Source: a virus
Length of the DNA: 64,000 nt
Virus record (IMG/VR): IMGVR_UViG_3300017971_000280
Span: 1 to 64,000 of that record
Strand: one strand, 5' to 3'
Below the pieces are notes generated by a model. That model did not search any database, was not told the origin of the DNA, and saw only the letters and a program-made list of their open reading frames with translations. The position numbers were made by a program, and so were the translations under genes. Shown one piece after another: positions 6,648 through 33,654 of the stretch (the first letter of the stretch is position 1; each line of letters opens with the position of its first letter).

Positions 6648-7077
6648 TGCCGTCTCCTTTCGTTACTCTTGCTGTAGTAATTTTTGTTGCGTGTCTAGTT
6701 ACTTTGATACTGTAGCCTCTATCAAATTCAGTAATTGGAATATACTTGTGATTGTTAGAGCGATGCCGTTTGAAGAACATATCCACTCTAAACCTGACTG
6801 GAACGCCGTAACGACCTAGACCGTCACGCCATTTCAGAACTTCGTCAAGACCTTTGGCTACATCTTGACTTGTGATGTAGAAGAAGTCCTCGCCATTCTC
6901 AGTATGCTTACAGTCACATAACCAGATTACGCCGTCTTTGATGTCCACTGTCAGCGTGTCAATCTCTCTGGCAATACGGTAAGCAACGTTACCTTTGTCT
7001 TTCTGGCTTCTGACCTCATCCTGCTCTTGGCGAGTTGCTTCCTCATTCCGTTGAGCTTTTAATTCTGCCTCATTCAT
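6640..7077 (-). CDS. Hypothetical protein, 145 aa, possible nuclease-like fold
   Basis: The start is placed at MNEAELKAQ because GAGGTAGAC precedes that ATG; an upstream GTG would add nine residues. The first 40 residues are charged helix. Then comes a beta-rich region with TLTVDIKDGVIWLCDCKHT, a D-x(n)-hydrophobic-C-K pattern slightly like a PD-(D/E)XK core, but the second acidic residue is a Cys, so I do not call it a nuclease. The C-terminus is basic. Confidence 0.6.
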   Translation of the reverse strand: MNEAELKAQRNEEATRQEQDEVRSQKDKGNVAYRIAREIDTLTVDIKDGVIWLCDCKHTENGEDFFYITSQDVAKGLDEVLKWRDGLGRYGVPVRFRVDMFFKRHRSNNHKYIPITEFDRGYSIKVTRHATKITTARVTKGDGNG

Positions 7078-7084
7078 GTCTACC

Positions 7085-7495
7085 TCATTTAGCCTTGACA
7101 CCAATGAGCTTTCCAGAGTTTACCTCTACGCCGTAGATTTCCTCTGGATTGTCGGCTTTCTTCAAGAACATCCTTACAGATTTTGGTGTTTTGAAAGCTT
7201 TGATGGTGCGTGCTGTGCCTTCTTCTTTTACCTGGTATGGAGTAAGATTGTGAACCGTACCAGTTAAGACTCTAGGCTCGGCTCTGAAGTAATGCTTGTG
7301 CTCAACACAATGTGGACATAAATCCCACTCTAGGAATGGGCTAAGTCCTCTGGTCTTGCAGAAGCATCTGCTCTGCCGCATCCAACCTTCACCGTCATAG
7401 CGAATGTCGGCTACGTCTTGTGCTCCACGTGACGGACACACGTTATTGAAATAGAAGCCGTCACAGTGGAATGTCTCTTGCTTCTTCCTAGCCAT
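7085..7495 (-). CDS. Cys- and His-rich hypothetical protein, 136 aa
   Basis: First gene of the leftward block, downstream of the promoter at 7531-7559, with AAAGGAGAGC before the ATG. Cys and His residues are concentrated in the first 70 residues (FHCDGFY, NVCP, RCFCKTRG, LCPHCVEHKHYF), suggesting one or two zinc sites. The C-terminal half is basic and beta-rich. Its position as the first early gene suggests an early takeover or regulatory role, but that is inference. Confidence 0.6.
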   Translation of the reverse strand: MARKKQETFHCDGFYFNNVCPSRGAQDVADIRYDGEGWMRQSRCFCKTRGLSPFLEWDLCPHCVEHKHYFRAEPRVLTGTVHNLTPYQVKEEGTARTIKAFKTPKSVRMFLKKADNPEEIYGVEVNSGKLIGVKAK

Positions 7496-7530
7496 TCTGC
7501 TCTCCTTTCCATAGTATTCCCACTATTAAG

Positions 7531-7559
7531 ATCTTAGCACAAGCCTAGAAATATGTCAA
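7531..7559 (-). promoter_or_regulatory. Main leftward early promoter candidate
   Basis: On the minus strand: TTGACA (7559-7554), 17-bp spacer, TAAGAT (7536-7531). The spacer and -10 read CTAGGCTTGTGCTAAGATCT, almost identical to the divergent rightward promoter at 8137-8165. This shared block is not found in the other promoters and may be an operator. Confidence 0.8.
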
Positions 7560-8136
7560 GTGTTTTGTTTGGCAGAGATCAAGTGAAGTGGCTCTGTTCT
7601 ACAACACGGCATTGGCTCAGAATGGGTGGGTGTGCTTTGGTTTATAGTCTGTTATCTCACTATACTATATACAAGGCACACACTATACTATTACTTGGAC
7701 ATTGGCTTCATAGAATACGCTAGGTGTAAACAGAGAATAGAACAAGGGTAGAGTCAAGAATGGCACGCAGAACACAGGTAGAACAGTAACGTTTCTCTCA
7801 TGTTCAGCAAACTTTTCAAAGTTGCCGCCTTGTCATGTTCAGCATATGGCACAGAGTATGTTCAGCGTAATGGCTTCCTTGTGTTTTGTATAGTATAGTA
7901 GTGGTATTATTGCCTAGCGGTAATACAAGAAAGGAATGCCACCACCCACCCTGCTGTTCAGCTTAACGGCTGTTTTGCCATACTTAACGTTCTGTTCAGA
8001 AAAACGTGCCATGACCTGCTGTTCTATACTACGGCACTATTGCCATTATTTATTTGCGGCAATTTTGCCACTGGCATTATTGCCTCACATCTCTAAAGTA
8101 CCGCACTACGGATTTTATTCCGCCATAAGAAAACAC
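7560..8136. other. Non-coding divergent control region
   Basis: About 580 bp between two divergent promoters with no convincing gene. It contains TGTTCAGC repeats (7801, 7836, 7859, 7955) and CGGC...TTGCC dyads in its right half, a GTATTA/TAATAC inverted repeat at about 7905-7926, and AT-rich stretches such as TATACTATATAC. This is where transcription changes direction. An origin of replication or operator region is the natural reading, by inference. Confidence 0.6.
7954..8124 (+). repeat. 27-bp repeat array with CGGC-N5-TTGCC dyads, array 1
   Basis: Two full 27-bp units (7954-7980, 8019-8045) start CTGTTC and end GGC-N5/6-TTGCCA. The internal imperfect palindrome CGGCnnTnTTGCC occurs at 7967, 8032 and 8057, as TGGCATTATTGCC at 8072, and as a looser form at 8107-8124. 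A further copy is at 7902-7914. The copies are not equally spaced. Confidence 0.75.
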
Positions 8137-8165
8137 TTGACAAAATCCTAGGCTTGTGCTATGAT
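8137..8165 (+). promoter_or_regulatory. Main rightward early promoter candidate
   Basis: TTGACA (8137-8142), 17-bp spacer, TATGAT (8160-8165), with CTAGGCTTGTGCTATGATCT across the spacer and -10, matching the leftward promoter at 7531-7559. Predicted transcription starts near 8172, three bases before the ATG of the GIY-YIG gene. Confidence 0.85.
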
Positions 8166-8174
8166 CTAGGTAGC

Positions 8175-8507
8175 ATGAATAAAGTAAATAATGATAACGC
8201 TCCAAGTGAAGTCTATATTCTACACTTCCAGTCACCCTACTGGACACGCTGTAGACACTATGTAGGGTATACCACTAGAGACGTAGAGACTAGAGTCTCA
8301 GAGCATCGCTCTGGTAAAGGCTCGCTTTTAGTCAACTACGCTCACAACAAGAAGGGCATTGACTTTGTTGTGGGACTTGTGGAGCAATTCGCAACACGTA
8401 AGCTTGCAAGGTGGCGTGAGAAACAACTCAAGAGAGAAGGACACTTATCACGCCATTGCAAAATATGTCAGGAAAGGAGAGCCGATGATGGAAATTGTCA
8501 TGAGTAA
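8175..8507 (+). CDS. GIY-YIG nuclease domain protein, 110 aa
   Basis: Single-domain GIY-YIG nuclease. The signature reads EVYILHFQSP, then HYVGYTTRDVETRVSEHRSG: the Y-I and Y-V-G elements, the catalytic Arg, and His and Gly at the usual spacing. Later come ATRKLARWREKQLK and a small CKICQERR turn. Proteins of this size resemble UvrC/Slx1-type domains and phage homing nucleases; without a DNA-binding tail, homing is less sure. I start at 8175 because an upstream in-frame ATG at 8154 lies inside the promoter. The mRNA leader would be about three bases, so translation may be leaderless. Confidence 0.85.
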   Translation: MNKVNNDNAPSEVYILHFQSPYWTRCRHYVGYTTRDVETRVSEHRSGKGSLLVNYAHNKKGIDFVVGLVEQFATRKLARWREKQLKREGHLSRHCKICQERRADDGNCHE

Positions 8508-8637
8508 GGACAAAGAGACGCCAGGTGCGGTAAGGTACAGTGATGGCGAAAACCATAACATTTACCTCCGCAAATCAGAAGCGGCTGAGATGGGTAATCC
8601 CGAATCGGTCAAGGTAACCATCGAACCTGAGAAGTAG
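8485..8637 (+). CDS. Hypothetical protein, 50 aa
   Basis: ATG at 8485 with AAAGGAG seven bases upstream (a second ATG follows at once). It overlaps the end of the nuclease gene by 23 nt. The pattern GAVRYSDGENHNIYLRKSE followed by a beta strand could be a small swapped-hairpin (AbrB-like) or beta-barrel fold, but that is only a visual impression. A longer frame opening at 8359 lacks a ribosome site. Confidence 0.55.
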   Translation: MMEIVMSKDKETPGAVRYSDGENHNIYLRKSEAAEMGNPESVKVTIEPEK

Positions 8638-8673
8638 CTCAGGCAAAAATAAACGAAAGGAGTTAAAAAGCCG

Positions 8674-8943
8674 ATGAGCAGGGCGAAAGACCGAGCCAGA
8701 GCAGAGTCGGGACTAATCTTCAGAGATGGGCATTTAGTCAACAAAGAAGATTGGTACAAGGCACATCCAACCAGAGCACAACTTCAGGCACAGGTTGATG
8801 AAGCTGTCCACGCTGAGATGGCGAGGAAGGAAAAGGCAAAGAATATCCCTTCTCGCTATTATTGTACTGCCTGTAGGAAGCACCACATCAAAACTTCAAA
8901 GGTCGGCACTGAGCACATGAATTTTTATCTTGAGGAGGCATAA
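8674..8943 (+). CDS. Hypothetical protein, 89 aa, with CxxC-type site
   Basis: ATG with AAAGGAG about 15 nt upstream. The product is basic and helical over residues 25-55, then has RYYCTACRKHHIKTSK, a short Cys/His motif that could bind zinc with the neighbouring His residues. It ends three bases before the next start. No family recognised. Confidence 0.6.
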   Translation: MSRAKDRARAESGLIFRDGHLVNKEDWYKAHPTRAQLQAQVDEAVHAEMARKEKAKNIPSRYYCTACRKHHIKTSKVGTEHMNFYLEEA

Positions 8944-8945
8944 TC

Positions 8946-9191
8946 TTGTTTACCAACGAATTGAAAAAAGGCGACAAAGTTAGACTCCGCAATGGATGGG
9001 ATGCCAAGCTTGAGGATAACATGAAAGGCAACACCAGACTTTGCACAGTCTACGGCTTCTGCACTGAGATGGGTAGTGTGTATTCCCATGACATCATGTG
9101 GAAGCAAAATGAAGACGGCTCAACAACTCCGATAGAACACACGCCAGCACAGCTCAAGCTCAAGGAACGTTGTGCGGCGATGGGGTTTTAG
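8946..9191 (+). CDS. Small beta-barrel-like hypothetical protein, 81 aa
   Basis: TTG start, supported by GAGGAGG upstream. The N-terminus reads LKKGDKVRLRNGWDAKLED, a typical SH3-like or KOW-type opening strand and turn. The rest includes TRLCTVYGF and a charged C-terminal helix. Phages commonly encode such small barrels; the function is unknown. Confidence 0.6.
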   Translation: MFTNELKKGDKVRLRNGWDAKLEDNMKGNTRLCTVYGFCTEMGSVYSHDIMWKQNEDGSTTPIEHTPAQLKLKERCAAMGF

Positions 9192-9192
9192 T

Positions 9193-9276
9193 GTGGAGGC
9201 ATTGGCATTTGCAATATTTATCGGAGTCTTTATCGGCGTTGTAGTAGTTGAGTCAAAGAGGCGGAACAAGTGGTAG
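9193..9276 (+). CDS. Possible 27-residue membrane peptide
   Basis: GTG-started frame encoding a hydrophobic stretch (LAFAIFIGVFIGVVVV) followed by a basic end (SKRRNKW), the profile of a single-span membrane peptide. The ribosome site is weak, and it begins two bases after the preceding stop. The amino-acid pattern is the main support. Confidence 0.35.
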   Translation: MEALAFAIFIGVFIGVVVVESKRRNKW

Positions 9277-9379
9277 GTGACCGTTCAGCAAGACGGCACG
9301 CAGAAAGGGGGTGATTAACGGCTACAAGTAAAAGCTGAAGAGCAGAACTGATTGGCTTTATTAAATTATTAGACATAGG

Positions 9380-9404
9380 AGAAAGCGGGCATGGCTCGCT
9401 TTCT
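9380..9404 (+). terminator. Probable rho-independent terminator
   Basis: Perfectly pairing 11-bp stem with one G-T wobble: AGAAAGCGGGC (9380-9390), loop ATG, GCTCGCTTTCT (9394-9404), followed by a pyrimidine-rich TCTGTTCTG. It would end the transcript of the genes at 8175-9276. Confidence 0.6.
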
Positions 9405-9405
9405 T

Positions 9406-9597
9406 CTGTTCTGTATTATGGCTACTTTGCCAGAAAGGCAACTTCTGTTCAGTTTATTTTGCCATAATTTTTATTTACGGCATTTTTGCCCAAGATCTGA
9501 GGCTCTTGGCGGTTCAGCATATTCTGCCACTATTGCACTTTACATAACGGCGATTTTGCCTACTTTACATAACGTTGCCGATTACGGCACTATTGCC
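9406..9597 (+). repeat. 27-bp repeat array, array 2
   Basis: Second array of the same repeat family as at 7954-8124. One full 27-bp unit is at 9406-9432, a shortened one starts at 9445 (CTGTTCAG to TTTTGCCA), and the CGGC...TTGCC dyad occurs at 9478, 9548 and 9585, with a T-G-G-C variant at 9419. It lies just after the terminator and before the promoter at 9670. Confidence 0.75.
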
Positions 9598-9669
9598 GCA
9601 TATGTAGGAAAGCGTAAGCATAGGACTAAAGTACCATGTAAAATAATGTAAAAAAAGTGATAAAAACAC

Positions 9670-9698
9670 TTGACAAACATAAAATAATCCTTTATGAT
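9670..9698 (+). promoter_or_regulatory. Rightward sigma70-like promoter
   Basis: TTGACA (9670-9675), 17-bp spacer, TATGAT (9693-9698), followed by CTAGATG. Its -10 and downstream bases (TATGATCTAG) match the promoter at 8160. It drives 9906-10535 after a leader of about 200 nt. Confidence 0.75.
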
Positions 9699-9905
9699 CT
9701 AGATGTAAGCTAAAATAAAATATAAGGTTAGGATATGAATTGAATAAAAAAGCTAGGTGTAAAGCAAAAAGTAAGCACCATAAATCAGAGCTAGAATAAC
9801 TAGCAATGCTGGAAGTGAGGTAACCAGCAAGGGATATTGAGACAATACCCTAAAAAGCACTAACAAAAGTGTAACAGTCTTAAAATAAAATTGTGAGGTA
9901 ATAAC
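9699..9905 (+). other. Long untranslated leader with a possible 19-codon peptide
   Basis: A/T-rich leader without a recognised riboswitch. A TTG-started frame at 9740-9799 after AAGGTTAGGA would encode a 19-residue, strongly basic peptide (KKARCKAKSKHHKSELE). The phrase TAAAATAAAAT occurs near both ends of the leader and again at 10590-10600, before the next gene. I see no clear attenuator hairpin. Confidence 0.3.
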
Positions 9906-10535
9906 GTGGTAGACAACAATACCAAAACTGGAATATCACCATCAACACTAGGTCGTGAGCGTAAACGGTATTTTGAGATGTCACAGCTTGACGGTGTGAC
10001 TAAAAAGCAAGTGGAAGCACAAATGCGACTTGACGCTAAACGCTACGCTAAAAAGCTGAATAAACCAATCAGCTTTGAGGATTACAAAGCTGATATTGAG
10101 ACACTCCCACAGCGTAGCAATAGCGGAAAGCGTGAAGCTGACAAGCTAACACGTGACACGCTTATACTTGAGACGCAAGAGCTAAACGCTGTCAATAACC
10201 TTGCTATACTCTCACATCGTGGTGAGGTAACCTTGACGGATGCTGACAAAGTGAAAGCTTTTGACGCAATGGGTGAGCGTGGAGACACGTTAGCAAGTCA
10301 CATGAATACCGCTTTTGATGGTGTGAAAGCACTAACCATGATACACGCACCAGATAACTTGCTTTGTGTCCACATTGCAGGTTGGGAAGATGGTAGCAAA
10401 AATTACCGCTTTCAATACGCACCTCGTAAACTTCCCATAACCAAACGCTCAGGATACCGTGACGATAGCTTTACCGCACCAGTGTATAACGTCAATCCTA
10501 CTCCAGAGACGGAAGCACCACCAGCGGAAAGCTAA
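9906..10535 (+). CDS. Hypothetical protein, 209 aa
   Basis: GTG start with GTGAGGT upstream. The product is soluble and charged; the first 70 residues are basic and helical (GRERKRYFEMSQLDG, AKRYAKKLNK). The central region has MNTAFDGVKALTM and then a beta-rich CVHIAGWEDGSKNYRFQYA. The last 20 residues are Pro, Glu and Ser rich and probably disordered. It is the first gene of its own transcript and may be highly expressed, given its simple promoter. No family recognised. Confidence 0.65.
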   Translation: MVDNNTKTGISPSTLGRERKRYFEMSQLDGVTKKQVEAQMRLDAKRYAKKLNKPISFEDYKADIETLPQRSNSGKREADKLTRDTLILETQELNAVNNLAILSHRGEVTLTDADKVKAFDAMGERGDTLASHMNTAFDGVKALTMIHAPDNLLCVHIAGWEDGSKNYRFQYAPRKLPITKRSGYRDDSFTAPVYNVNPTPETEAPPAES

Positions 10536-10618
10536 CCAGCTTGTCAATATTCTGCTAGTCTTTAAGACGTTAAAATTAAGACTAGCACAATAAAATAAAA
10601 TTGGAGGTACTTAACATA

Positions 10619-10759
10619 ATGTGTGAGAAGTGCGGGCGAAAGAATTGTCCTATACTAAACAAAACGGAATGCCCTATATATCAATTATGGGCAGAGGCAG
10701 AAGAGCTAGACAATAGCAAGGCAAGGCTACTGGCTGAGGCGGAGGCGATAGTAAAATGA
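10619..10759 (+). CDS. Small zinc-finger-like protein, 46 aa
   Basis: ATG with GGAGGT 11 nt upstream; its TGA overlaps the next ATG (ATGA). The first 20 residues contain CEKCGRKNCPILNKTECP, four Cys suited to one zinc ion, followed by a helix rich in Ala and Glu. Too small to assign a role. Confidence 0.6.
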   Translation: MCEKCGRKNCPILNKTECPIYQLWAEAEELDNSKARLLAEAEAIVK

Positions 10760-11025
10760 TACATAATATAATGAGTATGAACGAACTAGAAAAAACACTA
10801 GCACACAAGCCGAAGCCTACAAGTGAGACAACCAAAAAAGCAATTTTATTTTTACGTGGGCTTGATAGTGAGCACGCCCATAAATTCACACTAGATAACT
10901 ACATTGAAGCCGATGCCTTGACGGCTCACTATAGGTCAATAGCATATAGGTATAATGTACCCGCCAAAGTTAGCAAGCGTGATAATGTTGTATATGTATG
11001 GAAGCCTAGAGCCTATGAGTGCTAA
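10756..11025 (+). CDS. Hypothetical protein, 89 aa
   Basis: Translationally coupled to the 46-residue gene through an ATGA overlap. The product is basic, with an N-terminal helix, then DNYIEADALTAHYRSIAYRY and a C-terminal hairpin ending VVYVWKPRAYEC. The layout of helix followed by a short beta-hairpin suggests a small winged-helix-like domain, but I cannot confirm this. Confidence 0.55.
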   Translation: MIHNIMSMNELEKTLAHKPKPTSETTKKAILFLRGLDSEHAHKFTLDNYIEADALTAHYRSIAYRYNVPAKVSKRDNVVYVWKPRAYEC

Positions 11026-11157
11026 CTTGACATAACATTGCAATCCCGTAGCCCCCGCCCACTTTACATAAAAAACGGGCGTCCAAGCCACGAATTGCGA
11101 TGTTGTGTTGGATCTATTAGTCTAGAAGATTTTTGAAAGTTGCCTCCTGACTACGCT

Positions 11158-11206
11158 AAACACCTACTGGAAAATGTAGAGCTAATACTCATCGAAATAG
11201 GTGTTT
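11158..11206 (+). repeat. 9-bp inverted repeat in an intergenic region
   Basis: AAACACCTA (11158-11166) and TAGGTGTTT (11198-11206) pair perfectly across a 31-nt loop, in the 260-bp gap 11026-11286. There is no T tract after it. The same gap holds CGCCC/GGGCG arms at about 11056-11083. These could be operator or RNA structures before the promoter at 11214. Confidence 0.5.
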
Positions 11207-11213
11207 CACTGGA

Positions 11214-11242
11214 TAGACAACTATACATCTATATGGTATAAT
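11214..11242 (+). promoter_or_regulatory. Rightward sigma70-like promoter
   Basis: TAGACA (11214-11219), 17-bp spacer, TATAAT (11237-11242) preceded by TATGG and followed by TAAAGTAGAGG, the same frame of bases as in the promoters at 11516 and 60067. It drives the small membrane protein at 11287. Confidence 0.8.
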
Positions 11243-11286
11243 TAAAGTAGAGGTGAGGAGAGGAACGTAACCCAGGAGGTGTGCTG

Positions 11287-11451
11287 ATGGATATTTTAAT
11301 TATCATTGCTCTAGTTATTGCAATACCAGTTATTCTGTTTCCTGCGGCTTTTGTTTGGTACTTAAACATCAGTGGTATCTTGACCGTACTTAAACACAGC
11401 GTTATCAAACATAGAGTTAGGGAAGCTAGACGTAAAGCTGTACATGCGTAA
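11287..11451 (+). CDS. Small single-span membrane protein, 54 aa
   Basis: ATG with AGGAGGTG upstream, placed between its own promoter and its own terminator, so it is a one-gene transcript. Residues 2-26 are hydrophobic (ILIIIALVIAIPVILFPAAF), then a short linker and a strongly basic tail (KHRVREARRKAVHA). A one-helix protein with a basic cytoplasmic tail could be a membrane effector such as a superinfection-exclusion or holin-like peptide. The family is unknown and these are guesses. Confidence 0.65.
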   Translation: MDILIIIALVIAIPVILFPAAFVWYLNISGILTVLKHSVIKHRVREARRKAVHA

Positions 11452-11457
11452 CAGCGT

Positions 11458-11492
11458 GGGGGCGGAGTATTTATTTGCTTCGTCCCCTTTTT
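11458..11492 (+). terminator. Rho-independent terminator
   Basis: Ten-pair stem GGGGGCGGAG (11458-11467) with CTTCGTCCCC (11478-11487), including two G-T pairs, a 10-nt loop and a run of T directly after. It ends the membrane-protein transcript. Confidence 0.85.
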
Positions 11493-11515
11493 GTTAAAAG
11501 ACCTGTTAAAAAGGC

Positions 11516-11544
11516 TTGACAACTCCATGTTCATGTGGTATAAT
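11516..11544 (+). promoter_or_regulatory. Rightward sigma70-like promoter
   Basis: GGCTTGACAACT start, 17-bp spacer, TATAAT (11539-11544) with TGTGG before it and AGAGG shortly after. Same class as 14704, 60067 and 60174. Confidence 0.9.
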
Positions 11545-11561
11545 ATATATAGAGGTGAGAA

Positions 11562-11747
11562 ATGGATAAATACCATGTTCATATTTACATTGTTCAAGCT
11601 TTAGCTGAGGTGGGGGTTGATGCTTGTGACCCTGTTCAAGCTAAAGAGTTAGCTTTGGAGCAAGTTAAGAGTCTACCATTTGGTAAACCTGATTGTCATT
11701 GCATCGCTATTGCTTTCAGAGAGGTTGAGGATGAAAACAATTTATAG
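11562..11747 (+). CDS. Hypothetical protein, 61 aa
   Basis: ATG with AGAGGTGAG five bases upstream, about 12 nt after the predicted transcription start. The product begins with a beta strand (YHVHIYIVQ) and ends in strand and charged tail (CHCIAIAFREVEDEN). The ferredoxin-like arrangement is only suggestive. It overlaps the next gene by 17 nt. Confidence 0.6.
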   Translation: MDKYHVHIYIVQALAEVGVDACDPVQAKELALEQVKSLPFGKPDCHCIAIAFREVEDENNL

Positions 11748-12153
11748 TGAAGGTGCATTTGGAGAACCATATCGGATTGAAGTCAGTGATGACCTTCTTC
11801 ATGAGGTTAGGTCTGCTCAACGTATGCTAAGAATGCTTCCTTGGAATGGTGAGATGTTCTTACCTGTTCCTATCACTCCTCTAAGCGTAGATAAAAAGCT
11901 CAATGCTGAGATAGTGGTGGGGAAGAGGTTGGTGTCTATTTGTATTGAAGGTCCAGAAGGACGTGAGTCCTTATTGGATGGTTTGGATAACTTACTTGAA
12001 ATACCAGACATATATTTGAGCAGAGCGTTCGAATTTGACCTGAATGAGCATATGTTTAGTTTAATACCACGTGACATAGACGTGATAGCTACTTGGAAGG
12101 AACTTAAACGTAAGAAATTAGAAAATTTCGAAGATAATTGCGATTTTTCCTAA
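11731..12153 (+). CDS. Hypothetical acidic protein, 140 aa
   Basis: I start at MKTIYSEG (11731) because GAGGTTGAGG lies just before it; the longer frame from 11680 begins inside the previous gene without a ribosome site. The product is acidic, with alternating strands and helices (DGLDNLLEIPDIYLSRAFE) and a Lys-rich C-terminal helix. No recognised domain. Confidence 0.6.
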   Translation: MKTIYSEGAFGEPYRIEVSDDLLHEVRSAQRMLRMLPWNGEMFLPVPITPLSVDKKLNAEIVVGKRLVSICIEGPEGRESLLDGLDNLLEIPDIYLSRAFEFDLNEHMFSLIPRDIDVIATWKELKRKKLENFEDNCDFS

Positions 12154-12236: not shown

Positions 12237-12584
12237 GGGGGTGCGTGGATTCGACAGGGTGTTGAGTATAGATATAAGCAGGTAGTTATGGTACAACTAT
12301 AAAGACCGAAAAAAATAAGTGCAGAACTTAAATTATTCGTAGTCCTAGAAGAAGGATTACTCTTCTTAAACGATGAAGCTGAGGTCGTTAAAGAAGACCG
12401 TTTCTCAGCAGAACCAGTTGAAGCTCTGGCAACTGTCTAGAGAAATCTAGAAAACCTTAGAGTTACACTCCTTACCCTCTTTTCCATTCAGGTGAGTAAA
12501 GTGTATGCTTAGGAATGGAATAAACCTGTAGAAAATATTTATATAGATATTCTGGACAGGGAGTTCGACCCTCCCTCACCTCCA
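12237..12584 (+). ncRNA. ssrA: Transfer-messenger RNA (tmRNA)
   Basis: tmRNA rescues stalled ribosomes and adds a degradation tag. The 5' end GGGGGTG pairs with CACCTCC (12577-12583) in a 7-bp acceptor stem, followed by discriminator A. The 5' D-like segment has GGATTCGACAGGG. The T arm is GGGAG-TTCGACC-CTCCC (12559-12575). CCA is not encoded. A pseudoknot-like pair GGT..TTAT / ATAA..ACC lies before an A-rich stretch and the likely resume codon GCA at 12321-12323, 85 nt from the 5' end as usual. From there the frame stays open for 39 codons to TAG at 12438-12440, ending EALATV, far longer than the usual 8-35. The tag reading is uncertain; the RNA call is not. Confidence 0.93.
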
Positions 12585-12659
12585 CAAAGGCAACGCTTGG
12601 TATAGTACGGTATGGTAATATGCTGTCGTTAACCTTCAATTACGGTAATGGAGACGACC

Positions 12660-21290: not shown

Positions 21291-22802
21291 ATGGCAAAGA
21301 AGGATGAAGAAAAAACAACTAAAGTAGCTACTGGAGAGCTAAGTCCAGGTAAACTGGTTAAAGCGGCAGTTAATGTTTTGACAGACCCAACTCAGACTGG
21401 CTTGTTGTTCACTGAAGAAGTGGACAAAATGGAGATACCTAAGCAGTATCACAAGTTGATAAAAACATGTAGGTTCTTTTACAAGCGTGACCCGATTGCT
21501 GGTACTGTTTTGAACAAGATGGTGGATTGTGCCATTACTCCTCTATCAAACAGGAAGTCGGAGTGTACTGATGAGGAGTACGAAGTATATAACGCCCTAA
21601 CTGAGATGCTTCAGGAGTTCTTCAGAAATGTGTGTCTAGAATATTTGCTTTCTGGTTTGGTTATTCCTCATTACGAGTGGGTAAGAATGAGAGGTAGTGA
21701 CCTTTCTCAGAAGTTGAATTCTAGACGTAGGGTGACTGTTCCTGATAATATTTGGTTCAGAGACCCCGCAACGGTGACCGTCAAAAATTCAGTTATTCCG
21801 AATAAGAAATATTACTATGTTGATGTTGACGCAAGGACTATATCCTTTATCAAGAATAAGGGTAAATATCCTGACGGTACGGTTGACAAGGAAACGTATG
21901 AGGAATTGTTAAGAAATTACCCCGCATTTGTAAAGGCAATTCAAGAACTAAAAGGTACTAAGATGCAGATTAAACTGGAGGATATTAGACCGATTCTTGC
22001 GAAAACACTTCCAGAGGACGCATATCCAATACCTTACATGGAAAATGCTTTGGAGTCACTAATTCATAAGAGAAATCTTAGGAAAATGGACTATGCGATT
22101 GCGTCTAGGGTGGTTTCATCTATCCAATTGATTAAGTTGGGTAGCGATGAGTTCCCATGTACTGATGAGGCTGATTTTGACCATATAAAGAATCAGATGA
22201 ACTATAGAACTTCTACAGGGTATCAAGAGCGTGTTTATCAATTGTTTGCAAACCATACTCTTAATATTGAGTGGGTATTTCCTGATACACAAGCAATGAT
22301 TAACACTGAGAAATATCGTGCTGTAGAAGATGATATAATTGCGGCATTCGGATTTCCTAGAACATTGATTACTGGTGAAACTTTAAGGTCTAATGTTCAA
22401 GGTGGTTCTGATTTTGCGGCATTTTCTCCTATTGCTACTATGGAAACAATAAGAGACAGATTACTTGAGTGGACTAAGGAATTATATAAGGAAATTAGAG
22501 ATAAGAATGAGTATATCAAGAATTACCCTATGCCTCAGTTCACACCTATGAGACTTTACAGACTACTTGACCTTAATATTATTGGTCAATCTCTATACAT
22601 GGAGGGTAATATTTCAAGGAAATCAAGACAGGAACTTGTTGGTCTTGACTTTGATACTGAAATTGAGAGAAAAGCCGAGGAAGAGAAGAGGATGAAGGAA
22701 TTAGGTATACCAGAAGCACCCGAACTACCGTTCTCTTCACCGCAGATTGGTAATCCTAACCAAAGGAGAGGAAATGAAAACAAGGATGAACCTACAGGAT
22801 AA
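21291..22802 (+). CDS. Portal protein, 503 aa
   Basis: Directly follows the large terminase, in the standard position. The family trait of a long polar protein with a central helical core is present, with LLSGLVIPHYEW and VFPDTQAMINTEKYRAVEDD matching portal-type patterns, and GETLRSNVQGGSDFAAFSP typical of portals of siphoviruses. Portals form the dodecameric ring at one capsid vertex through which DNA passes. The start at 21291 follows GTGGAG; an earlier in-frame ATG lies inside the terminase gene. Its last 29 nt overlap the first glyco gene. Confidence 0.85.
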   Translation: MAKKDEEKTTKVATGELSPGKLVKAAVNVLTDPTQTGLLFTEEVDKMEIPKQYHKLIKTCRFFYKRDPIAGTVLNKMVDCAITPLSNRKSECTDEEYEVYNALTEMLQEFFRNVCLEYLLSGLVIPHYEWVRMRGSDLSQKLNSRRRVTVPDNIWFRDPATVTVKNSVIPNKKYYYVDVDARTISFIKNKGKYPDGTVDKETYEELLRNYPAFVKAIQELKGTKMQIKLEDIRPILAKTLPEDAYPIPYMENALESLIHKRNLRKMDYAIASRVVSSIQLIKLGSDEFPCTDEADFDHIKNQMNYRTSTGYQERVYQLFANHTLNIEWVFPDTQAMINTEKYRAVEDDIIAAFGFPRTLITGETLRSNVQGGSDFAAFSPIATMETIRDRLLEWTKELYKEIRDKNEYIKNYPMPQFTPMRLYRLLDLNIIGQSLYMEGNISRKSRQELVGLDFDTEIERKAEEEKRMKELGIPEAPELPFSSPQIGNPNQRRGNENKDEPTG

Positions 22803-23727
22803 GAAAATTCTAGTCACTGGTGGTAAGGGTTTTTTGGGTCAATGGGTAATAAAAGAACTTATTGCTAATGGAGCAAAGGATATTACCATACCCGATTCTT
22901 CAAATTGTGACCTGAGAGACGAGAATAACTGCTATAGAGCTATGGTTGATGCAGATTTGTGCATCCACTTAGCGGCACGTGTTGGTGGTATTGGACTTAA
23001 TAATGCCAAACCTGCCGACCTGTTCTTCGATAACATGAGTATGGGACTTAATATGATTCATCTCGCCAATATACTAAAATTGGAGAAGATTCTTGTGGTC
23101 GGAACGATATGTGCCTATCCTAAGTTCACTCCCGTACCATTCAAAGAGGAAGACTTGTGGTGTGGTTATCCAGAAGAGACAAACGCACCTTACGGTATCG
23201 CAAAGAAATCATTATTAGTCTACCTGCAAGCTTGTCGTAAGCAGTATGGTCTTAATGGTATATTTTTACTACCAGTAAATCTATATGGACCTGGTGATGA
23301 CTTTGACCCTGAAAGTTCTCATGTCATTCCTGCACTAATAAAGAAAGTGTACGATGCACGTGAAGCTAATGCAGACCATATTGATGTATGGGGTACTGGC
23401 AAAGCCACTAGGGAATTTTTGTATGTTGAAGATTGTGCTGAAGGGATTGTTAAAGCCCTAATAAACTACGATAAACCAGACCCAATCAATTTAGGTAAGG
23501 GTTTTGAAATATCCATAAAGGATTTAGTAGATAAAATAGTGTCATTGATGGAGTTCAAGGGTGAAGTTATTTGGGATACCTCTAAGCCAGATGGACAACC
23601 TAGAAGGATGTTAGACACAACAAAGGCAGAACAAGAGTTTGGATTTAAGGCAAAAACTTCATTCGATGAAGGACTGTTAAAGACTATAAGGTGGTATGAG
23701 AGTGAAAAAAGAAGTAGTGCTATCTGA
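22774..23727 (+). CDS. fcl: GDP-L-fucose synthase / GDP-4-keto-6-deoxymannose epimerase-reductase, 317 aa
   Basis: Short-chain dehydrogenase family enzyme that converts GDP-4-keto-6-deoxymannose to GDP-L-fucose with NADPH. It has the Rossmann motif GGKGFLG (16-22), then GTICAYP (110-116), carrying the epimerase Cys, and Tyr140/Lys144 in YGIAK, plus GQPRRMLD near the end, a hallmark of this enzyme. The length is normal. The start follows AGGAGAGG and overlaps the portal gene by 29 nt, so it is read with it. Its substrate is the product of the dehydratase at 25383. Confidence 0.93.
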   Translation: MKTRMNLQDKKILVTGGKGFLGQWVIKELIANGAKDITIPDSSNCDLRDENNCYRAMVDADLCIHLAARVGGIGLNNAKPADLFFDNMSMGLNMIHLANILKLEKILVVGTICAYPKFTPVPFKEEDLWCGYPEETNAPYGIAKKSLLVYLQACRKQYGLNGIFLLPVNLYGPGDDFDPESSHVIPALIKKVYDAREANADHIDVWGTGKATREFLYVEDCAEGIVKALINYDKPDPINLGKGFEISIKDLVDKIVSLMEFKGEVIWDTSKPDGQPRRMLDTTKAEQEFGFKAKTSFDEGLLKTIRWYESEKRSSAI

Positions 23728-24922
23728 GGATAACTTTATTAGTAGTAGTAAGCATGTCTTTAAGCTGGATGGTAAGATGTACAGGGGGTATGACAATGCT
23801 CATGCTCCAGACATTAGAAGTTTTATATTTAACTTGGAGAGACTATACGATTTAGGTCTAGTTCGTACTTCTATAGCTCCACTTGTTTCTAAAGAATTTG
23901 GTCTGATTTTAGAGCACGAAACTATTGATTTTATTACGTATCGTGAAGAATGGACTAATAAAATGTTTTTGGATGCGGCAATTATGATGATTGACCTGCA
24001 AACAGAGCTAGTTAAGAATGAGATGTGTTTGTATGATGGACACGCTTCTAATGTTCTGTATGATTACACCAGACCAGTATTTATTGATTTGGATTCAATT
24101 ATACCATTATCAGGTTCAATAGCGTGGTTTAATGGGTTTTATCCCCAATTTGTGAAGACACTCGCTCAACGTAGTAATCAAGACCCTAGTTATTGGTATG
24201 AGTTGATAGAGAAGACAATAAATTCCCCCAAGTCAAAAGGCAGTGCCTCAGCTTGGCAAGACGCATTTTTGGATTTGCTGATAGAGACTCGTAGCTGGTT
24301 CTCCAGCATGAGTGTTAACGAAAAGATTACACCTTGGAGTACTTATACTCAACCCACAGCAGAGTTGACTAATAATAAGCAGAAAGTAACAGCACAACTT
24401 CTTAACAGGATATATTCTGATGGTATGACACTATTTGACGTGGGTGCTAACGAGGGATGGTACTCAAACTTTGCTTGCAATATTGGGTATCGTGTTGTGG
24501 CAGTTGAGATAGATGAGCAATGTATGACCAAGTTATATCTACAAGCTAAAGAATCAAATGTAAAGATTTTACCATTAGCATTTAATTTCTTACATCCTTG
24601 GCAAGCTCATCCTCCATACATGGATGCTATTGATAGATTGAAGTGCGAAGTGTGTCTAGGATTGGCTGTGGTTCATCATATGGTATTTTCACAGAAGTCA
24701 ACGTTTCCTGAGATTGCTTCCAAATTCAACGATTTCTCAAAGAAATATGCTATTGTTGAGTTTCCACCAGAAGATGATATTTTTGTGCATAATTGGGTTA
24801 CACCTGAAACTAACTGGTATAACTTAGATAACTTTATTGCTGAGATGTCAAAATATTTCCCCAAGCATGAGGTATTTGACTCACACCCAAAACCAAGGAC
24901 AATAATCTTATTTGAAAAGTAA
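23696..24922 (+). CDS. Fusion of a kinase-like domain and a SAM methyltransferase, 408 aa
   Basis: N-terminal residues 1-210 include YDGHASNVLYD and PVFIDLDSI, the D-G-H..N and D-L-D catalytic and metal-binding patterns of aminoglycoside/choline-kinase-like enzymes. The C-terminal half starts LFDVGANEGWYS, the SAM-binding glycine motif I, followed by an acidic loop (VAVEID) typical of Rossmann methyltransferases, and LGLAVVHHMV. The pair suggests a modified sugar or lipid acceptor in this cassette. Substrates unknown. Related joined proteins occur in sugar loci (NoeA-like), which I note from memory only. Confidence 0.7.
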   Translation: MRVKKEVVLSEDNFISSSKHVFKLDGKMYRGYDNAHAPDIRSFIFNLERLYDLGLVRTSIAPLVSKEFGLILEHETIDFITYREEWTNKMFLDAAIMMIDLQTELVKNEMCLYDGHASNVLYDYTRPVFIDLDSIIPLSGSIAWFNGFYPQFVKTLAQRSNQDPSYWYELIEKTINSPKSKGSASAWQDAFLDLLIETRSWFSSMSVNEKITPWSTYTQPTAELTNNKQKVTAQLLNRIYSDGMTLFDVGANEGWYSNFACNIGYRVVAVEIDEQCMTKLYLQAKESNVKILPLAFNFLHPWQAHPPYMDAIDRLKCEVCLGLAVVHHMVFSQKSTFPEIASKFNDFSKKYAIVEFPPEDDIFVHNWVTPETNWYNLDNFIAEMSKYFPKHEVFDSHPKPRTIILFEK

Positions 24923-24932
24923 AGGAGAGGAT

Positions 24933-25382
24933 ATGTACATTGAAGAAGAACTTTATAAGAAATTTGTGGATTTGATGCCTATTGCATGTGTTGATGTTCT
25001 TATACATGATGATGATGGCAATATACTTCTTGTAAAGAGAAACCAAGAACCAGCTAAGGACAAGTGGTGGGTTATCGGTGGTAGGTTATTAAAAGAAGAG
25101 ACAATGCCAGAAGCGGCGGTACGGAAAGCTAAGGAAGAGGTTATGTTAGATGTTGAGGTTGAAAAGTTTATTGGTGTCTATGATGAATTCTTTGATACCA
25201 GTATTCAAGGATTCCCAACTCATACAGTCTGTGTCGCTTTTTTAGCTAAAGCAAACAACTTACTGATGGCTGACGTTGACTACACTTGTGACGGCTTTAA
25301 AGTTGTCAATAGTGTTGACGACAGTTACGACCCATATGTTTTAAGGGTCATAAAAGATAGTGGAATTTTGGAGAGGAAGTAA
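24933..25382 (+). CDS. Nudix hydrolase, GDP-mannose mannosyl hydrolase-like, 149 aa
   Basis: The altered Nudix box at 49-69 begins GGRLLKEETMPEAAVR and continues with KAKEE. It lacks the first Glu at the position seen in ordinary Nudix boxes, as in GDP-mannose mannosyl hydrolases. Those enzymes cleave GDP-mannose to GDP and sugar and help to tune sugar-nucleotide pools. DKWWVIGGRL also fits this subgroup. It lies between fcl and gmd genes, which supports GDP-sugar as substrate. ATG at 24933, after AAAGGAGAGG. Confidence 0.8.
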   Translation: MYIEEELYKKFVDLMPIACVDVLIHDDDGNILLVKRNQEPAKDKWWVIGGRLLKEETMPEAAVRKAKEEVMLDVEVEKFIGVYDEFFDTSIQGFPTHTVCVAFLAKANNLLMADVDYTCDGFKVVNSVDDSYDPYVLRVIKDSGILERK

Positions 25383-26450
25383 ATGAAAAAAGCTTTAATT
25401 ACAGGAATTACAGGACAAGATGGGTCATATCTTGCTGAGTTACTTTTGTCCAAAGGATATGAAGTTCATGGGATAATAAGAAGGGCTAGTACCTTTAATA
25501 CTGGTAGACTTGACAACATTTATGTTGACCCTCATACACCAGGTGCAAGGTTGTTCCTGCATTATGGTGACTTAACAGATTGCGAACAGATTTCTAACAT
25601 AATCTACAATGAGCATCCAGATGAGGTTTATCATCTAGGAGCACAGAGTCACGTTAGGGTAAGTTTTGATTGTCCAGAGTATACTACTAATGTTACTGCA
25701 TTAGGTACTACTAGGATACTGGAAGCCATACGAAGAAGTAAGAGTGAAACAAAGTTCTATCAGGCTTCTAGTAGTGAAATGTTTGGTGCTTCTACCCCAC
25801 CACAGAACGAAGATACAGCATTTAAACCTAGGAGTCCATATGCGTGTTCTAAGGCTTATGCGTACTGGATGGTTAAGAACTATCGAGAGGGGTATGATGT
25901 TTTTGCGTCTAATGGCATCCTATTTAACCATGAAAGTCCACGTAGAGGCGAAACTTTCGTAACTAGAAAGATTACTAGAGCTATTGCTAATATCTTAAAA
26001 GGAACTCAGGATAAACTTTATCTTGGTAACCTTGAGGCAAAAAGAGATTGGGGATATTCTCCAGAGTATGTTGAGGGAATGTGGCGTATTTTACAACATG
26101 ACAACCCTGATGATTTTGTTCTAGGTACTGGTGAAACGCACAGTGTTCAAGAGTTTGTTCAAGCGGCATTTGCATACGCTGGACTCGATTGGAAGGACTA
26201 TGTTGAGATTGACCCACGTTACTTTAGACCTACAGAAGTTGAAGCTCTGCAAGCTGATGCTTCTAAAGCAAAAGAGTTATTAGGATGGAAACCTAGAATT
26301 GCTTTTAAGGAAATAGTGTGGATTATGGTTGATTCTGATATGCAAGGAGTAGGTTTAAGCCCAATTGGTCAGGGAATCAAGGTTATAGAGAACAAATTTG
26401 ATTGGCATGTATGGGACGGTGCAGGAAAGGTGGTTTTCTATGGAGATTAG
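25383..26450 (+). CDS. gmd: GDP-mannose 4,6-dehydratase, 355 aa
   Basis: Converts GDP-D-mannose to GDP-4-keto-6-deoxymannose, the branch point for fucose, rhamnose and perosamine. NADP-binding [11 protein letters not shown] at 8-18, the catalytic SSSEMFG (129-135), Tyr153 and Lys157 in SPYACSK, and [16 protein letters not shown], a signature of this enzyme. Length and motif order are normal. It begins directly after the Nudix gene stop. Confidence 0.95.
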
Positions 26451-26880
26451 GCGTCTAGACTATGAGCACATTGACGGATTAATTGACCTCTATGAATTTA
26501 ACGAAAAAGAGTTTGGACGTTTCACACCTCATCCTTTCACTAGAGAGTCACTGACCAAAATCATAAAAGAGTCCGTTCTCGACTTGTTCTATGTGGCTGT
26601 GTTTAACTCAACAATTATAGGATACACCATGTTGAGGGGAATGGATGAGGGATATGCTGTCCCCCGACTTGGTATAGCTGTTGATAAAGGTGTTTATGGT
26701 ACTGGTGTAGCTACTACGTTAATGGAACATCTTGAAGCTACTTGTAGACTTCGTGGTTATAAGGAAATTAGTCTCAGAGTTTACAAAGACAATCCTAGAG
26801 CATATAATTTCTATATAAAATTAGGATATGACTATAGACCATACGATAATGAGTCAGTGTTGGGGTTTAAGGAGCTATAA
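26440..26880 (+). CDS. GNAT-family N-acetyltransferase, 146 aa
   Basis: Acetyl-CoA-dependent transferase. The cofactor site is at [17 protein letters not shown] (a variant of the R/Q-x-x-G-x-G/A motif A), then [13 protein letters not shown], the usual motif B ending of GNAT proteins. The start at 26440 overlaps the gmd gene by 11 nt. In a locus with a DegT aminotransferase, N-acetylation of an amino sugar such as GDP-perosamine is a plausible job, but the substrate cannot be read from sequence. Confidence 0.8.
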
Positions 26881-27110
26881 TGGACATAAGCAAAAAGTCT
26901 ATAAGCATGTTGATTGATGAATTGATTACTACTAATATTAAGTGTTGGTTTGCTCAGGAGAGGTTGATGTCAGCTACCAATGACCATGATGTGGCTGAAG
27001 CGGCAAGGGATGCACAATCGCTTAACGCACGAAGAAATGCTCTTATGAGGGCGATTGATGAAATGTTAGGTCAGGGTAGTATAACATTAACGGAGAAGTC
27101 GTATGGATAG
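26880..27110 (+). CDS. Small helical protein, 76 aa
   Basis: ATG overlaps the previous stop. The product is one helical hairpin: MLIDELITTNIKCWFAQERL, then SLNARRNALMRAIDEMLG. The R-x-x-L-x-x-x-I-D-E ending recalls short DUF4254-type proteins that occur in sugar-nucleotide loci. Function unknown; it may be an accessory subunit. Confidence 0.55.
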   Translation: MDISKKSISMLIDELITTNIKCWFAQERLMSATNDHDVAEAARDAQSLNARRNALMRAIDEMLGQGSITLTEKSYG

Positions 27111-28131
27111 AAAGAAAATATTCATGTATGCCACACAGAGTAAGTTAGTTGAGGAAGAATCTTTTCTATTTCACAAACTAGGTTTTGATGTTTATACAGC
27201 GGCGTGGGCAACTGACCAGACTACTCATTTTAGGGGATATAAGGACTATAACCCAAACCACTTCTATCAAGGTAAATGTGATTTTCTAACTGATGATGAG
27301 ATTAATGTATTATCAAAGGTTGATGTTAGTTGGGACAAGCTACCAACAGTTTCAACAAGATATGTTCCCGAAGTTAGAGATGTCTTATTGGATAAGTTTG
27401 ATATACTGTACGTAATAGCACCTACTCCTTGGTTGCTGTATGGTGAGGACTTTCTTAAAGCTGGTAAGAAGGTAGTATTCAGACCCTTTGGTTATGCTCC
27501 TTATACGTGGGGGAAATCAGTAGACATATCTGTATTGTCTAATTATGAAGATTTCCATGTGGTTACTTGTACTCCATATGATGTAAAGCATTACAAAAAC
27601 GTGTCAACAGCGATAACTATGGTCAACAAAGACCTTATTTTAGACCCTGCACCACAGGGTGACCACATATTTACCATTTTCCCGATTGTTAATGGTCAAA
27701 TAAAGAACGACCTTGCAATCAAACTCAATGCTTTAAAAATTCCTTGGGTATTACATGAGTACCACTATGAGTGGAAGTCTAGTGTAGACATGGATAAGTT
27801 GTTTAGCTCTAGTGTTCTATATTTTGATTTGAACTCGATGGTCAGGTATCCCATCTTGGAAGCAATGGCACATGGCAAAGCTGTTGTTATGAGGGGGAGC
27901 TTATCTCCCAAAACACCACAAGCATTCGTTTTCTTGGTTGATGCTGGACTAGACCCAACTATACCGTGTTATTATAAGGATTTTGGTAATGCTCCAAGTG
28001 TAGTAGCTAAATTATATGCAAGTTCTGAGCTTAGAGATAGAGTTGCTACTGTCCAAACAACGTGGTTAGATTCTATGATAGATAAGGCGATTGAGGTATG
28101 GTCTAGAGTATTGGAGGTTAACAATGGGTAG
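27103..28131 (+). CDS. Glycosyltransferase-like protein, GT-B type, 342 aa
   Basis: The C-terminal half has YPILEAMAHGKAVVMRGSL, the EAMAxG-K-x-V motif of GT-B transferases (GT4/GT1) that contacts the nucleotide sugar. The N-terminal domain has alternating strands and helices (DILYVIAPTPWLLYG). It lies between the amino-sugar genes and a methyltransferase, so it probably transfers a GDP- or UDP-sugar. No signal peptide: it acts in the cytoplasm. Confidence 0.7.
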   Translation: MDRKKIFMYATQSKLVEEESFLFHKLGFDVYTAAWATDQTTHFRGYKDYNPNHFYQGKCDFLTDDEINVLSKVDVSWDKLPTVSTRYVPEVRDVLLDKFDILYVIAPTPWLLYGEDFLKAGKKVVFRPFGYAPYTWGKSVDISVLSNYEDFHVVTCTPYDVKHYKNVSTAITMVNKDLILDPAPQGDHIFTIFPIVNGQIKNDLAIKLNALKIPWVLHEYHYEWKSSVDMDKLFSSSVLYFDLNSMVRYPILEAMAHGKAVVMRGSLSPKTPQAFVFLVDAGLDPTIPCYYKDFGNAPSVVAKLYASSELRDRVATVQTTWLDSMIDKAIEVWSRVLEVNNG

Positions 28132-28828
28132 ATTTTATGGACAATGGAATCCACCAGTAGACAAGGTTCTTTATGATAATTACTTCACTGATGTTAGAGA
28201 TGGTTACTTCATAGACTGTGGAGCGGCTGAAGGGGCTTTATATAGTAATACTAAATTCTTCGATGAAACTATGGGTTGGAATGGTATTTGCATAGAGCCA
28301 TCAGTGGCATTTGAGCAACTTGTTGTTAATAGACCAAGAGCAATTAACTTGAATATCGCCCTGTCCGATAAGAATGGTGTCATTGGTTTCACTGAGGCAG
28401 TACACGCAAAGGGACACAACGTTCCAGGTTTACCACCAGGTGGCTCAATTCATTATAACGATATTCCATTGCTTAAAAATGAAATTGGACGTTGGGGATA
28501 TATCTTCACTGAGCGTGAAGTTGAGACATTAACTTACAAGTCATTAATTGATAAGTATAGTGTAGATAAGGTTGACCTTTTAGTTATTGATGTAGAGGGT
28601 CACGAAATGGCGGTTATTAGGGGGATAGAAGGAGCATTAGTAATGCCTAGCGTTGTTTGTGTCGAATACCCTATAACTGGTATAAACAAAATAACAAGAG
28701 CTTTGCTTGAATTTGGGTATCGGTTTGATTTCATGAGTTTTAATAACGCTTTCTTTTCAATCGGATTTCCTGAGAAGGAATGGACTGGTACTACAGATAA
28801 GTGGGGAACTTGTTATCAGGAGGATTAG
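28124..28828 (+). CDS. FkbM-family methyltransferase, 234 aa
   Basis: The SAM-binding motif YFIDCGAAEGALYS is near residue 30, followed by an acidic loop (GICIEP). Later there is VDLLVIDVEGHEM, the VDVEGxE motif typical of FkbM methyltransferases, which O-methylate sugars and polyketides. ATG at 28124 after GGAGGTTAAC. It probably methylates a sugar hydroxyl made by this cassette. Confidence 0.85.
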   Translation: MGRFYGQWNPPVDKVLYDNYFTDVRDGYFIDCGAAEGALYSNTKFFDETMGWNGICIEPSVAFEQLVVNRPRAINLNIALSDKNGVIGFTEAVHAKGHNVPGLPPGGSIHYNDIPLLKNEIGRWGYIFTEREVETLTYKSLIDKYSVDKVDLLVIDVEGHEMAVIRGIEGALVMPSVVCVEYPITGINKITRALLEFGYRFDFMSFNNAFFSIGFPEKEWTGTTDKWGTCYQED

Positions 28829-28829
28829 T

Positions 28830-29912
28830 GTGATACCATACGCAAAACCTTTTTTGAGTGGTAAGGAAGTAGAATATGTGGCTGATGCTGTAGCATCTAC
28901 TTGGATTTCTGGTGGTAAGTATCTTAATAAACTAGAAGATGAATTATCTGATATTTTAGGTAAGCGTGTTCTAACTACATCTAACGGTACTACTGCTATT
29001 CAACTAGCTTATTTAGTTGCGGGGCTTAAAGCTGGTGATGAGATAATAGTTCCAGGATTCACTTTTATGGCTGTGGCAAATTTGGCATTGCATGTTGGTA
29101 TAAAACCAATTTTTGCCGATGTTGATTTTCATACTTGGTGTGTTACTGCTAAGAACATAGAGAAGAAGCTAACCAATAAGACCAAAGCTATTGTTCCTGT
29201 TCACACTTATGGGAATGTGTGTGATATGGATGAGATAGTAAAACTAGCGTCCCGTAATAATATTATAGTGATAGAGGATGGTGCTGAGGCTTTGTTCTCC
29301 AAGTATAAAAATAACTATTGTGGTACTTTCGGAGAGATAGGTACTTTCAGTATGCACGCTACTAAAACTATAACTACTGGAGAGGGTGGTTTTGTGGTTT
29401 GTGATGACTCATTAACTGAAGTGATGTCTTTATATAGGAGTCATGGGTTATTGGAACGTGGTTCGTATGACCACCTAGTAGCAGGACATAATTTTAGGTT
29501 AACTAATATACAAGCGGCTTTGGGGTGTGCTCAGTTAGAGAATATAACTACTATACTTGCAGAGAAGAATAGAATTCTTAGTGTCTACAGGTCTCGTTTA
29601 GAAAATATAGATGGGATATACTTGCAGGAGTACAGACCAGAAGTTGACCCCGTTGTGTGGGTAGTAGCAGTTAGACTTGATGACTTAGCGTTTCCTCAGA
29701 GCAGGGATGGGGTGCTCAAGCAACTTAAAGCGGCAGGTGTAGAGGCTAGACCAGGTTTTGTAGCGTCCAGTAAGCTTAAATATTTCGCACCACATAAATT
29801 ACCAGTGTCGGAGGAGTTGAGCAGAACTGTGCTTAGTCTCCCAACATACCCTGATTTAAAAAACGAAGAAATACATCAAATTTGTGATGTTTTAATCGAG
29901 GCAAGGAGTTAA
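28830..29912 (+). CDS. DegT/DnrJ/EryC1 aminotransferase, perosamine synthase-like, 360 aa
   Basis: PLP-dependent sugar aminotransferase. The Schiff-base lysine is K179 in SMHATKTITTGEGG, with IVIEDGAEA (147-154) holding the cofactor Asp150 and SNGTTAIQLA near the phosphate-binding site. The family converts 4-keto-6-deoxy sugars to amino sugars. With GDP-mannose dehydratase beside it, GDP-4-keto-6-deoxymannose to GDP-perosamine is the likely reaction. The substrate is inferred from context. GTG start, preceded by AGGAGG. Confidence 0.88.
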   Translation: MIPYAKPFLSGKEVEYVADAVASTWISGGKYLNKLEDELSDILGKRVLTTSNGTTAIQLAYLVAGLKAGDEIIVPGFTFMAVANLALHVGIKPIFADVDFHTWCVTAKNIEKKLTNKTKAIVPVHTYGNVCDMDEIVKLASRNNIIVIEDGAEALFSKYKNNYCGTFGEIGTFSMHATKTITTGEGGFVVCDDSLTEVMSLYRSHGLLERGSYDHLVAGHNFRLTNIQAALGCAQLENITTILAEKNRILSVYRSRLENIDGIYLQEYRPEVDPVVWVVAVRLDDLAFPQSRDGVLKQLKAAGVEARPGFVASSKLKYFAPHKLPVSEELSRTVLSLPTYPDLKNEEIHQICDVLIEARS

Positions 29913-29913
29913 T

Positions 29914-32994: not shown

Positions 32995-33004
32995 CGAGGC
33001 TGAA

Positions 33005-33112
33005 GTGAAAGTATGTACGAAATGTAAAAGAGTAGTTGATAATAAAACAGAGAAATGTCCAACATGTGGGAATGATGAATTTCAGACCCTTATGTTCTTG
33101 GAAGGACAGTAG
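33005..33112 (+). CDS. Small zinc-ribbon protein, 35 aa
   Basis: GTG-started frame of 35 codons with CTKCKRVV and CPTCGND, two CxxC knuckles 11 residues apart. It fills the gap between the last glyco gene and the head genes and is followed by AGAGGTGAG for the next start. Very small; supported by the zinc pattern. Confidence 0.5.
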   Translation: MKVCTKCKRVVDNKTEKCPTCGNDEFQTLMFLEGQ

Positions 33113-33123
33113 AGGTGAGTTAA

Positions 33124-33636: not shown

Positions 33637-33654
33637 GCTGAAAGGAGTGGATTT

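Follow-up and report, generated by a model that had tools for sequence, protein, structure and literature searches.

Two intergenic gaps of a 71,274-bp phage contig (G000, a virus record) are filled by clusters of a directional, two-part site, CTGTTC-N6-8-YGGC-N6-GCC, and by lone copies of its dyad, GGC-N2-T-N2-TGCC. The repeats are real, conserved and specific to this locus, and the corresponding gaps carry the site in all four relatives that were compared. The clusters are probably binding sites of a single DNA-binding regulator, which would control a few neighboring transcription units. The window, that is, the whole stretch of DNA that was analyzed, comprises 64,000 nucleotides (bases 1–64000 of the contig).

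A directional two-part site confined to one locus

A sequence-only reading of the window had described two arrays of a 27-bp repeat in the two largest gaps. The two gaps (9192–9905, 714 bp, and 7496–8174, 679 bp) are the largest of the contig, and all full units, lone dyads and copies of TGTTCAGC (7801, 7836, 7859, and 7955) named in that reading are present (table 1). Three copies have the full length, but many others are incomplete, and the intervals between copies vary irregularly (about 15 to 70 bp); the repeats are therefore clusters rather than tandem arrays; the term array is kept below for brevity. The end of the unit, given as GGC-N5/6-TTGCCA, had to be corrected, as the spacer has four bases in all three full units. 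A shorter form, CTGTTC-N10-GCC, has two copies in G000, and an extra site shared with relatives adjoins the leftward promoter. The open reading frames that cross the arrays had been attributed to chance. The matching arrays of G010 contain stops in all three forward frames, and a coding sequence through the arrays was rejected because the frames are not conserved. The ATG of one such frame (ORF 9391) sits within the loop of a terminator-like hairpin.

Table 1. Features of the two gaps and neighboring genes (positions in the window; array 1, gap 7496–8174; array 2, gap 9192–9905)
Feature	Position	Strand	Remarks
First gene of leftward group	7085–7495	−	
Promoter TTGACA-N17-TAAGAT	7531–7559	−	For leftward gene group; near-consensus, consensus match only
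Site CTGTTC-N8-GGC	7594–7610	+	Beside leftward promoter; common to G004 and G010
Degenerate part of array 1	7801–7880	+	TGTTCAGC at 7801, 7836, 7859; TGGC after 7836 and 7859
Full unit CTGTTC-N7-CGGC-N6-GCC-A	7954–7980	+	
Short unit CTGTTC-N10-GCC	7992–8010	+	
Full unit	8019–8045	+	
Lone dyad CGGCAATTTTGCCA	8057–8070	+	
Lone dyad TGGCATTATTGCCT	8072–8085	+	
CTAAAG-type element	8093–8105	+	44 bp before −35
Promoter TTGACA-N17-TATGAT	8137–8165	+	For 8175–9191; near-consensus, consensus match only
GIY-YIG family protein	8175–8507	+	First gene of rightward group; PF01541, E 7e-6; kept in G004 and G006
Conserved small protein	8674–8943	+	Own array and promoter in G004, G010, G006
Terminator-like hairpin	9375–9409	+	−18.8 kcal/mol, 16 pairs; between 8175–9191 group and array 2
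Full unit, array 2	9406–9432	+	
Short unit CTGTTC-N10-GCC, array 2	9445–9463	+	
Lone dyad	9478–9490	+	
TTATGTMAA block	9538–9572		
Second repeat TTATGTAAAG, copy 1	9538–9547	−	
Lone dyad	9548–9560	+	
Second repeat TTATGTAAAG, copy 2	9563–9572	−	
Lone dyad CGGCACTATTGCCG	9585–9598	+	
CTAAAG-type element	9626–9635	+	44 bp before −35
Promoter TTGACA-N17-TATGAT	9670–9698	+	For 9906 gene; near-consensus, consensus match only
Conserved 209-aa protein	9906–10535	+	Homologue preceded by array in 5/5 genomes

The arrays had been claimed to occur only here. Within the whole contig CGGCNNTNTTGCC is found six times, always on the + strand and within 7967–9597, and its backward reading, used as a control, has no match; with one mismatch allowed, 10 matches are found in the window versus 1.27 expected. 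Relatives were recruited through the protein encoded at 9906 and the terminase: G001 (13 kb), G004 (148 kb), G010 (66.5 kb), and the distant relative G006 (153 kb), whose 9906 homologue is 38% identical. Over the five genomes (∼446 kb), all 14 matches of CTGTTC-N6-8-YGGC-N6-GCC lie on the + strand of the homologous locus and none elsewhere (controls: 1 match in reversed sequences, 0 in Markov resamples). The looser pattern TGTTC-N6-8-YGGC has 24 matches in the locus, all on the + strand, versus 11 elsewhere, and the density of GGC-N5-TGCC in the locus is 27–258 times that of the rest of each contig. The full-genome motif search that had been proposed as a check places the full unit in this locus and nowhere else, and arrays were not seen in the other large gaps of the same genomes.

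The sites are kept in G006, where the neighboring protein is only 38% identical. Copy number and spacing vary among the relatives, with two to four arrays per genome. Among the + strand copies of GGC-N5-TGCC the third spacer base, which is free in the pattern, is T in 33 out of 35, and the near-palindromic dyad is therefore directional. Inside the dyad, the bases vary from genome to genome but are similar among the copies of each genome (mostly GATTAT in G006, NNTNTT in G000 and G010), as coevolution of a protein and its sites would predict. Beyond the known relatives, the matches listed in pattern scans of viral and bacterial collections were apparently chance singletons. The single outside viral contig whose cluster merited a closer look (L072) was discarded, its cluster being located in a coding region.

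Predicted promoters and genes next to the arrays

In G000, genes point leftward as far as 7495, and those from 8175 onward point rightward. The contig encodes a DnaB helicase, a primase, a class II ribonucleotide reductase, a ClpP-like protease and a terminase; a PolA-type DNA polymerase, capsid and tail proteins were assigned by reading the proteins. In a terminase search of annotated phages a single weak match was obtained, the closest being 22.8% identical, and the lineage is therefore essentially known from metagenomes. A megablast of 7000–12000 found no near relative among annotated phages. Neither an integrase (PF00589; a degenerate relative could be missed) nor an HTH_3 repressor (PF01381) was matched in six contigs (G000 and five relatives), and a lysogeny repressor system was rejected on the absence of both. 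Two further observations concern gene content. In G004, phage proteins match the Ku, IF3 C-terminal domain, ribosomal protein S21, DnaJ, RtcB, and DruA families, and in the window a block of sugar-nucleotide, glycosyltransferase and methyltransferase-like genes (22774–34809), as judged from reading the proteins, lies between the portal and capsid regions.

All promoters discussed here are predictions from matches to the sigma70-type consensus. Most arrays have such a promoter downstream on the same strand within about 100 bp. For the eight arrays in G000, G004, and G006 that precede a promoter found, the nearest site lies 29–100 bp before the −35 of TTGACA-N17-TANNNT, again on the same strand; in G010 and G001 the nearest site is 142–374 bp from the promoter found, and array 4 of G006 has no clear promoter. 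Multiple copies of one site are thus clustered at promoters and rare elsewhere, as in an operator array. The many strong promoters elsewhere in these genomes are without arrays, and the array promoters are often weaker than others (TATGAT or TAAGAT or, in G006, no TG before the −10). A second element, CTAAAG(G)TACGCA or a close variant, is located 43–45 bp before the −35 of six promoters (two in G000, three in G006, and one in G004, where the copy was identified by reading the sequence).

The arrays go along with their genes when the gene order changes. The GIY-YIG, 8674, and 8946 genes of G000 are under one array and promoter, and in G004 the GIY-YIG and 8674 homologues have a separate array and promoter each. 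The gene order differs in G006, and there a 60-aa ORF, the 8674 homologue, and the GIY-YIG gene are each preceded by a separate array, CTAAAG element, and promoter. The array-plus-promoter module therefore goes with the transcription unit.

Outside the locus (G000, G004, G010, and G006), leftward promoters have a GGC at spacer positions 8–13 in 23 out of 27 cases and rightward promoters a GGC just before the −35 in 20 out of 29; the two promoter classes by direction are possibly two temporal classes, and the YGGC of the leftward promoters resembles the array half-site. The long 5′ leader of the 9906 homologue (window 9765–9905; L033 7615–7735; L034 5755–5870; L035 6455–6570) contains hairpins with seven pairs changed on both sides in three sequences (G004, G010, and G006); the window leader folds well (z −3.66), but a five-sequence alignment supports no more than a weak common structure.

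Putative regulator and related systems

The proposed regulator would read a two-part site, in which CTGTTC is followed 7–8 bases on by the dyad GGC-N6-GCC with a T-rich center that gives direction. Each promoter has several sites ahead of it, usually 29–180 bp upstream of the −35, from where the protein would most likely act cooperatively, either in activation or in repression by looping or wrapping. Simple covering of the promoter is not expected, since the sites lie upstream of the −35. Given the weaker array promoters, the choice leans slightly toward activation.

The conserved neighbors of the arrays (7085, 6640, 8674, and 9906) have no family match in Pfam, and among the small proteins of G000 and G004 no transcription factor was recognized (best 25 of 29 families each). 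AlphaFold models of the 9906 and 7085 proteins were too weak to use (pLDDT 66 and 40), and a Foldseek comparison of the 9906 model with the PDB returned nothing at E ≤ 0.001. The site may instead be bound by a host protein. The site is a concrete control-site candidate for phages known only from metagenomes, and the conserved neighbors are a short list of proteins that could bind it; pairing the site with its protein would define a new family of regulators. In addition, the module may act as a sequence signature for locating the control region in related contigs.

Related systems are known. SPBRE of Bacillus phage SPbeta is a 15-bp element at various intergenic regions of the prophage; it was first recognized by sequence alone, and only afterwards was a phage regulator with an unexpected fold, the MrpR repressor, shown to bind it; MrpR has a tyrosine-recombinase fold (PMC10516654). 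The present site is likewise a short repeated element in phage intergenic regions, but it is bipartite, confined to one locus, and belongs to a phage without a detected integrase. The stoperators of cluster A mycobacteriophages have 13 bp and are distributed genome-wide, with an orientation that follows transcription (PMC9283540). The sites described here resemble cluster A operators and stoperators as directional intergenic sites near promoters but differ in that all are on the + strand of one locus, even beside the leftward promoter.

A more far-reaching version is decidedly unlikely: in a lineage of ∼150-kb phages in which neither an integrase nor a classical repressor is detectable, a regulator of a new type, with an as yet unrecognized fold, might read the directional bipartite site in upstream arrays, and array, fixed-distance CTAAAG element, and promoter might together be carried along with individual genes as a portable module, which would also link early transcription to an origin close by.

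Replication origin, neutral repeats, and RNA as alternatives

The sequence-only reading had likened the arrays either to the iterons of replication origins or to a series of operators. Iteron-type origins such as the O sites of phage lambda and the RepA iterons of P1 consist of repeated sites for protein binding, placed within or next to early genes of the phage and close to AT-rich DNA, and DnaA boxes beside iterons are common in plasmid iteron origins. One alternative, possible although rather unlikely, puts a phage origin at the point where the genome diverges: the arrays would be iterons bound by an initiator, and transcription from the promoters close by would assist in opening the origin. 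The predicted binding sites share the setting of iterons, and G000 encodes its own DnaB, primase, and PolA-type polymerase. Unlike iterons, the dyads do not form regular direct repeats (starts at 7968, 8033, 8058, and 8073 in array 1; 9420, 9479, 9549, and 9586 in array 2), the two to four arrays per genome are mostly each at a promoter, and no initiator family was recognized. No DnaA-box-like words occur in the G000 locus, and the loci of G004 and G006 have a single match apiece. The 9906 gene, next to the arrays, encodes a conserved protein that resembles no known family or solved structure. Of the two proposals the operator series has held up better, with sites ahead of promoters and each array staying with its gene. 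A promoter-control array is favored over iterons because a promoter follows most arrays, the module moves with the gene, and the CTAAAG element keeps its distance in three of the five genomes.

GC skew had been suggested as a check on the origin. In three out of four genomes, G000 (8240), G004 (27304), and G010 (35703), the cumulative skew reaches its lowest point at the locus, but this turn is inseparable from the switch in transcription. Gene direction flips at the minimum, and the left arms of G000, G004, and G010 have almost no skew at fourfold sites, so that GC skew does not decide the matter.

A better origin candidate than the arrays is a different repeat, TTATGTMAA, which occurs in both orientations and is concentrated in the gap before the 9906 homologue (two copies in G000, one in G004, nine in G010, four in G006, and seven in G001). 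This gap is ∼65% AT, and in each of the five genomes the repeat exceeds its background there by a factor of 35 to 200; further blocks are found in G010 (37344–37592) and in L001 (120–440). The copies might alternatively be autoregulatory sites. An origin in the 9906-gene gap is quite possible, since the skew turns in this region in three out of four genomes and TTATGTMAA is present in the second gap, and origin and promoter control need not exclude each other.

There is a slim chance that the arrays represent short repeats, neutral or selfish, which build up in the largest gaps. Such repeats would account for the variable copy number and spacing among the relatives, and the divergent gap of G010 (L034 3866–3985) contains a lineage-specific repeat, GGCTTCAGAG / YGGCTTCAGAGAAT, in four copies. 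They would not account for the restriction to one strand and one locus, the same bipartite form at 38% protein identity, or the empty state of the other large gaps.

A function as RNA, in guide arrays of the TIGR or CRISPR type or in a series of hairpins, is highly improbable. TIGR arrays consist of two short repeats that alternate, with short variable stretches in between (PMC12045711), an arrangement that the present arrays resemble, and in array 1 of G006 the dyads are 35–37 bp apart; for the 9906 model the match to TasH was weak and not significant (E 2.4). Elsewhere the spacing has no regular period, and the folding of single units is no better, or only slightly better, than that of shuffles. 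Located between divergent promoters, array 1 is transcribed from neither of these predicted promoters; array 2 follows the terminator-like hairpin and is therefore unlikely to be transcribed from the preceding genes. The Nop family (PF01798) is absent from five contigs, although a divergent Tas protein could be missed, and a guide-RNA array was rejected on the irregular spacing and the missing Nop match. Known RNA families have no match in the arrays; the sole match in the window is a phage-encoded tmRNA gene elsewhere (12237–12587, + strand; Rfam RF00023, 112.6 bits, E 5e-43). This copy was missed by ARAGORN, and a tmRNA gene is also present in the distant relative G006 (L035 9157–9490).
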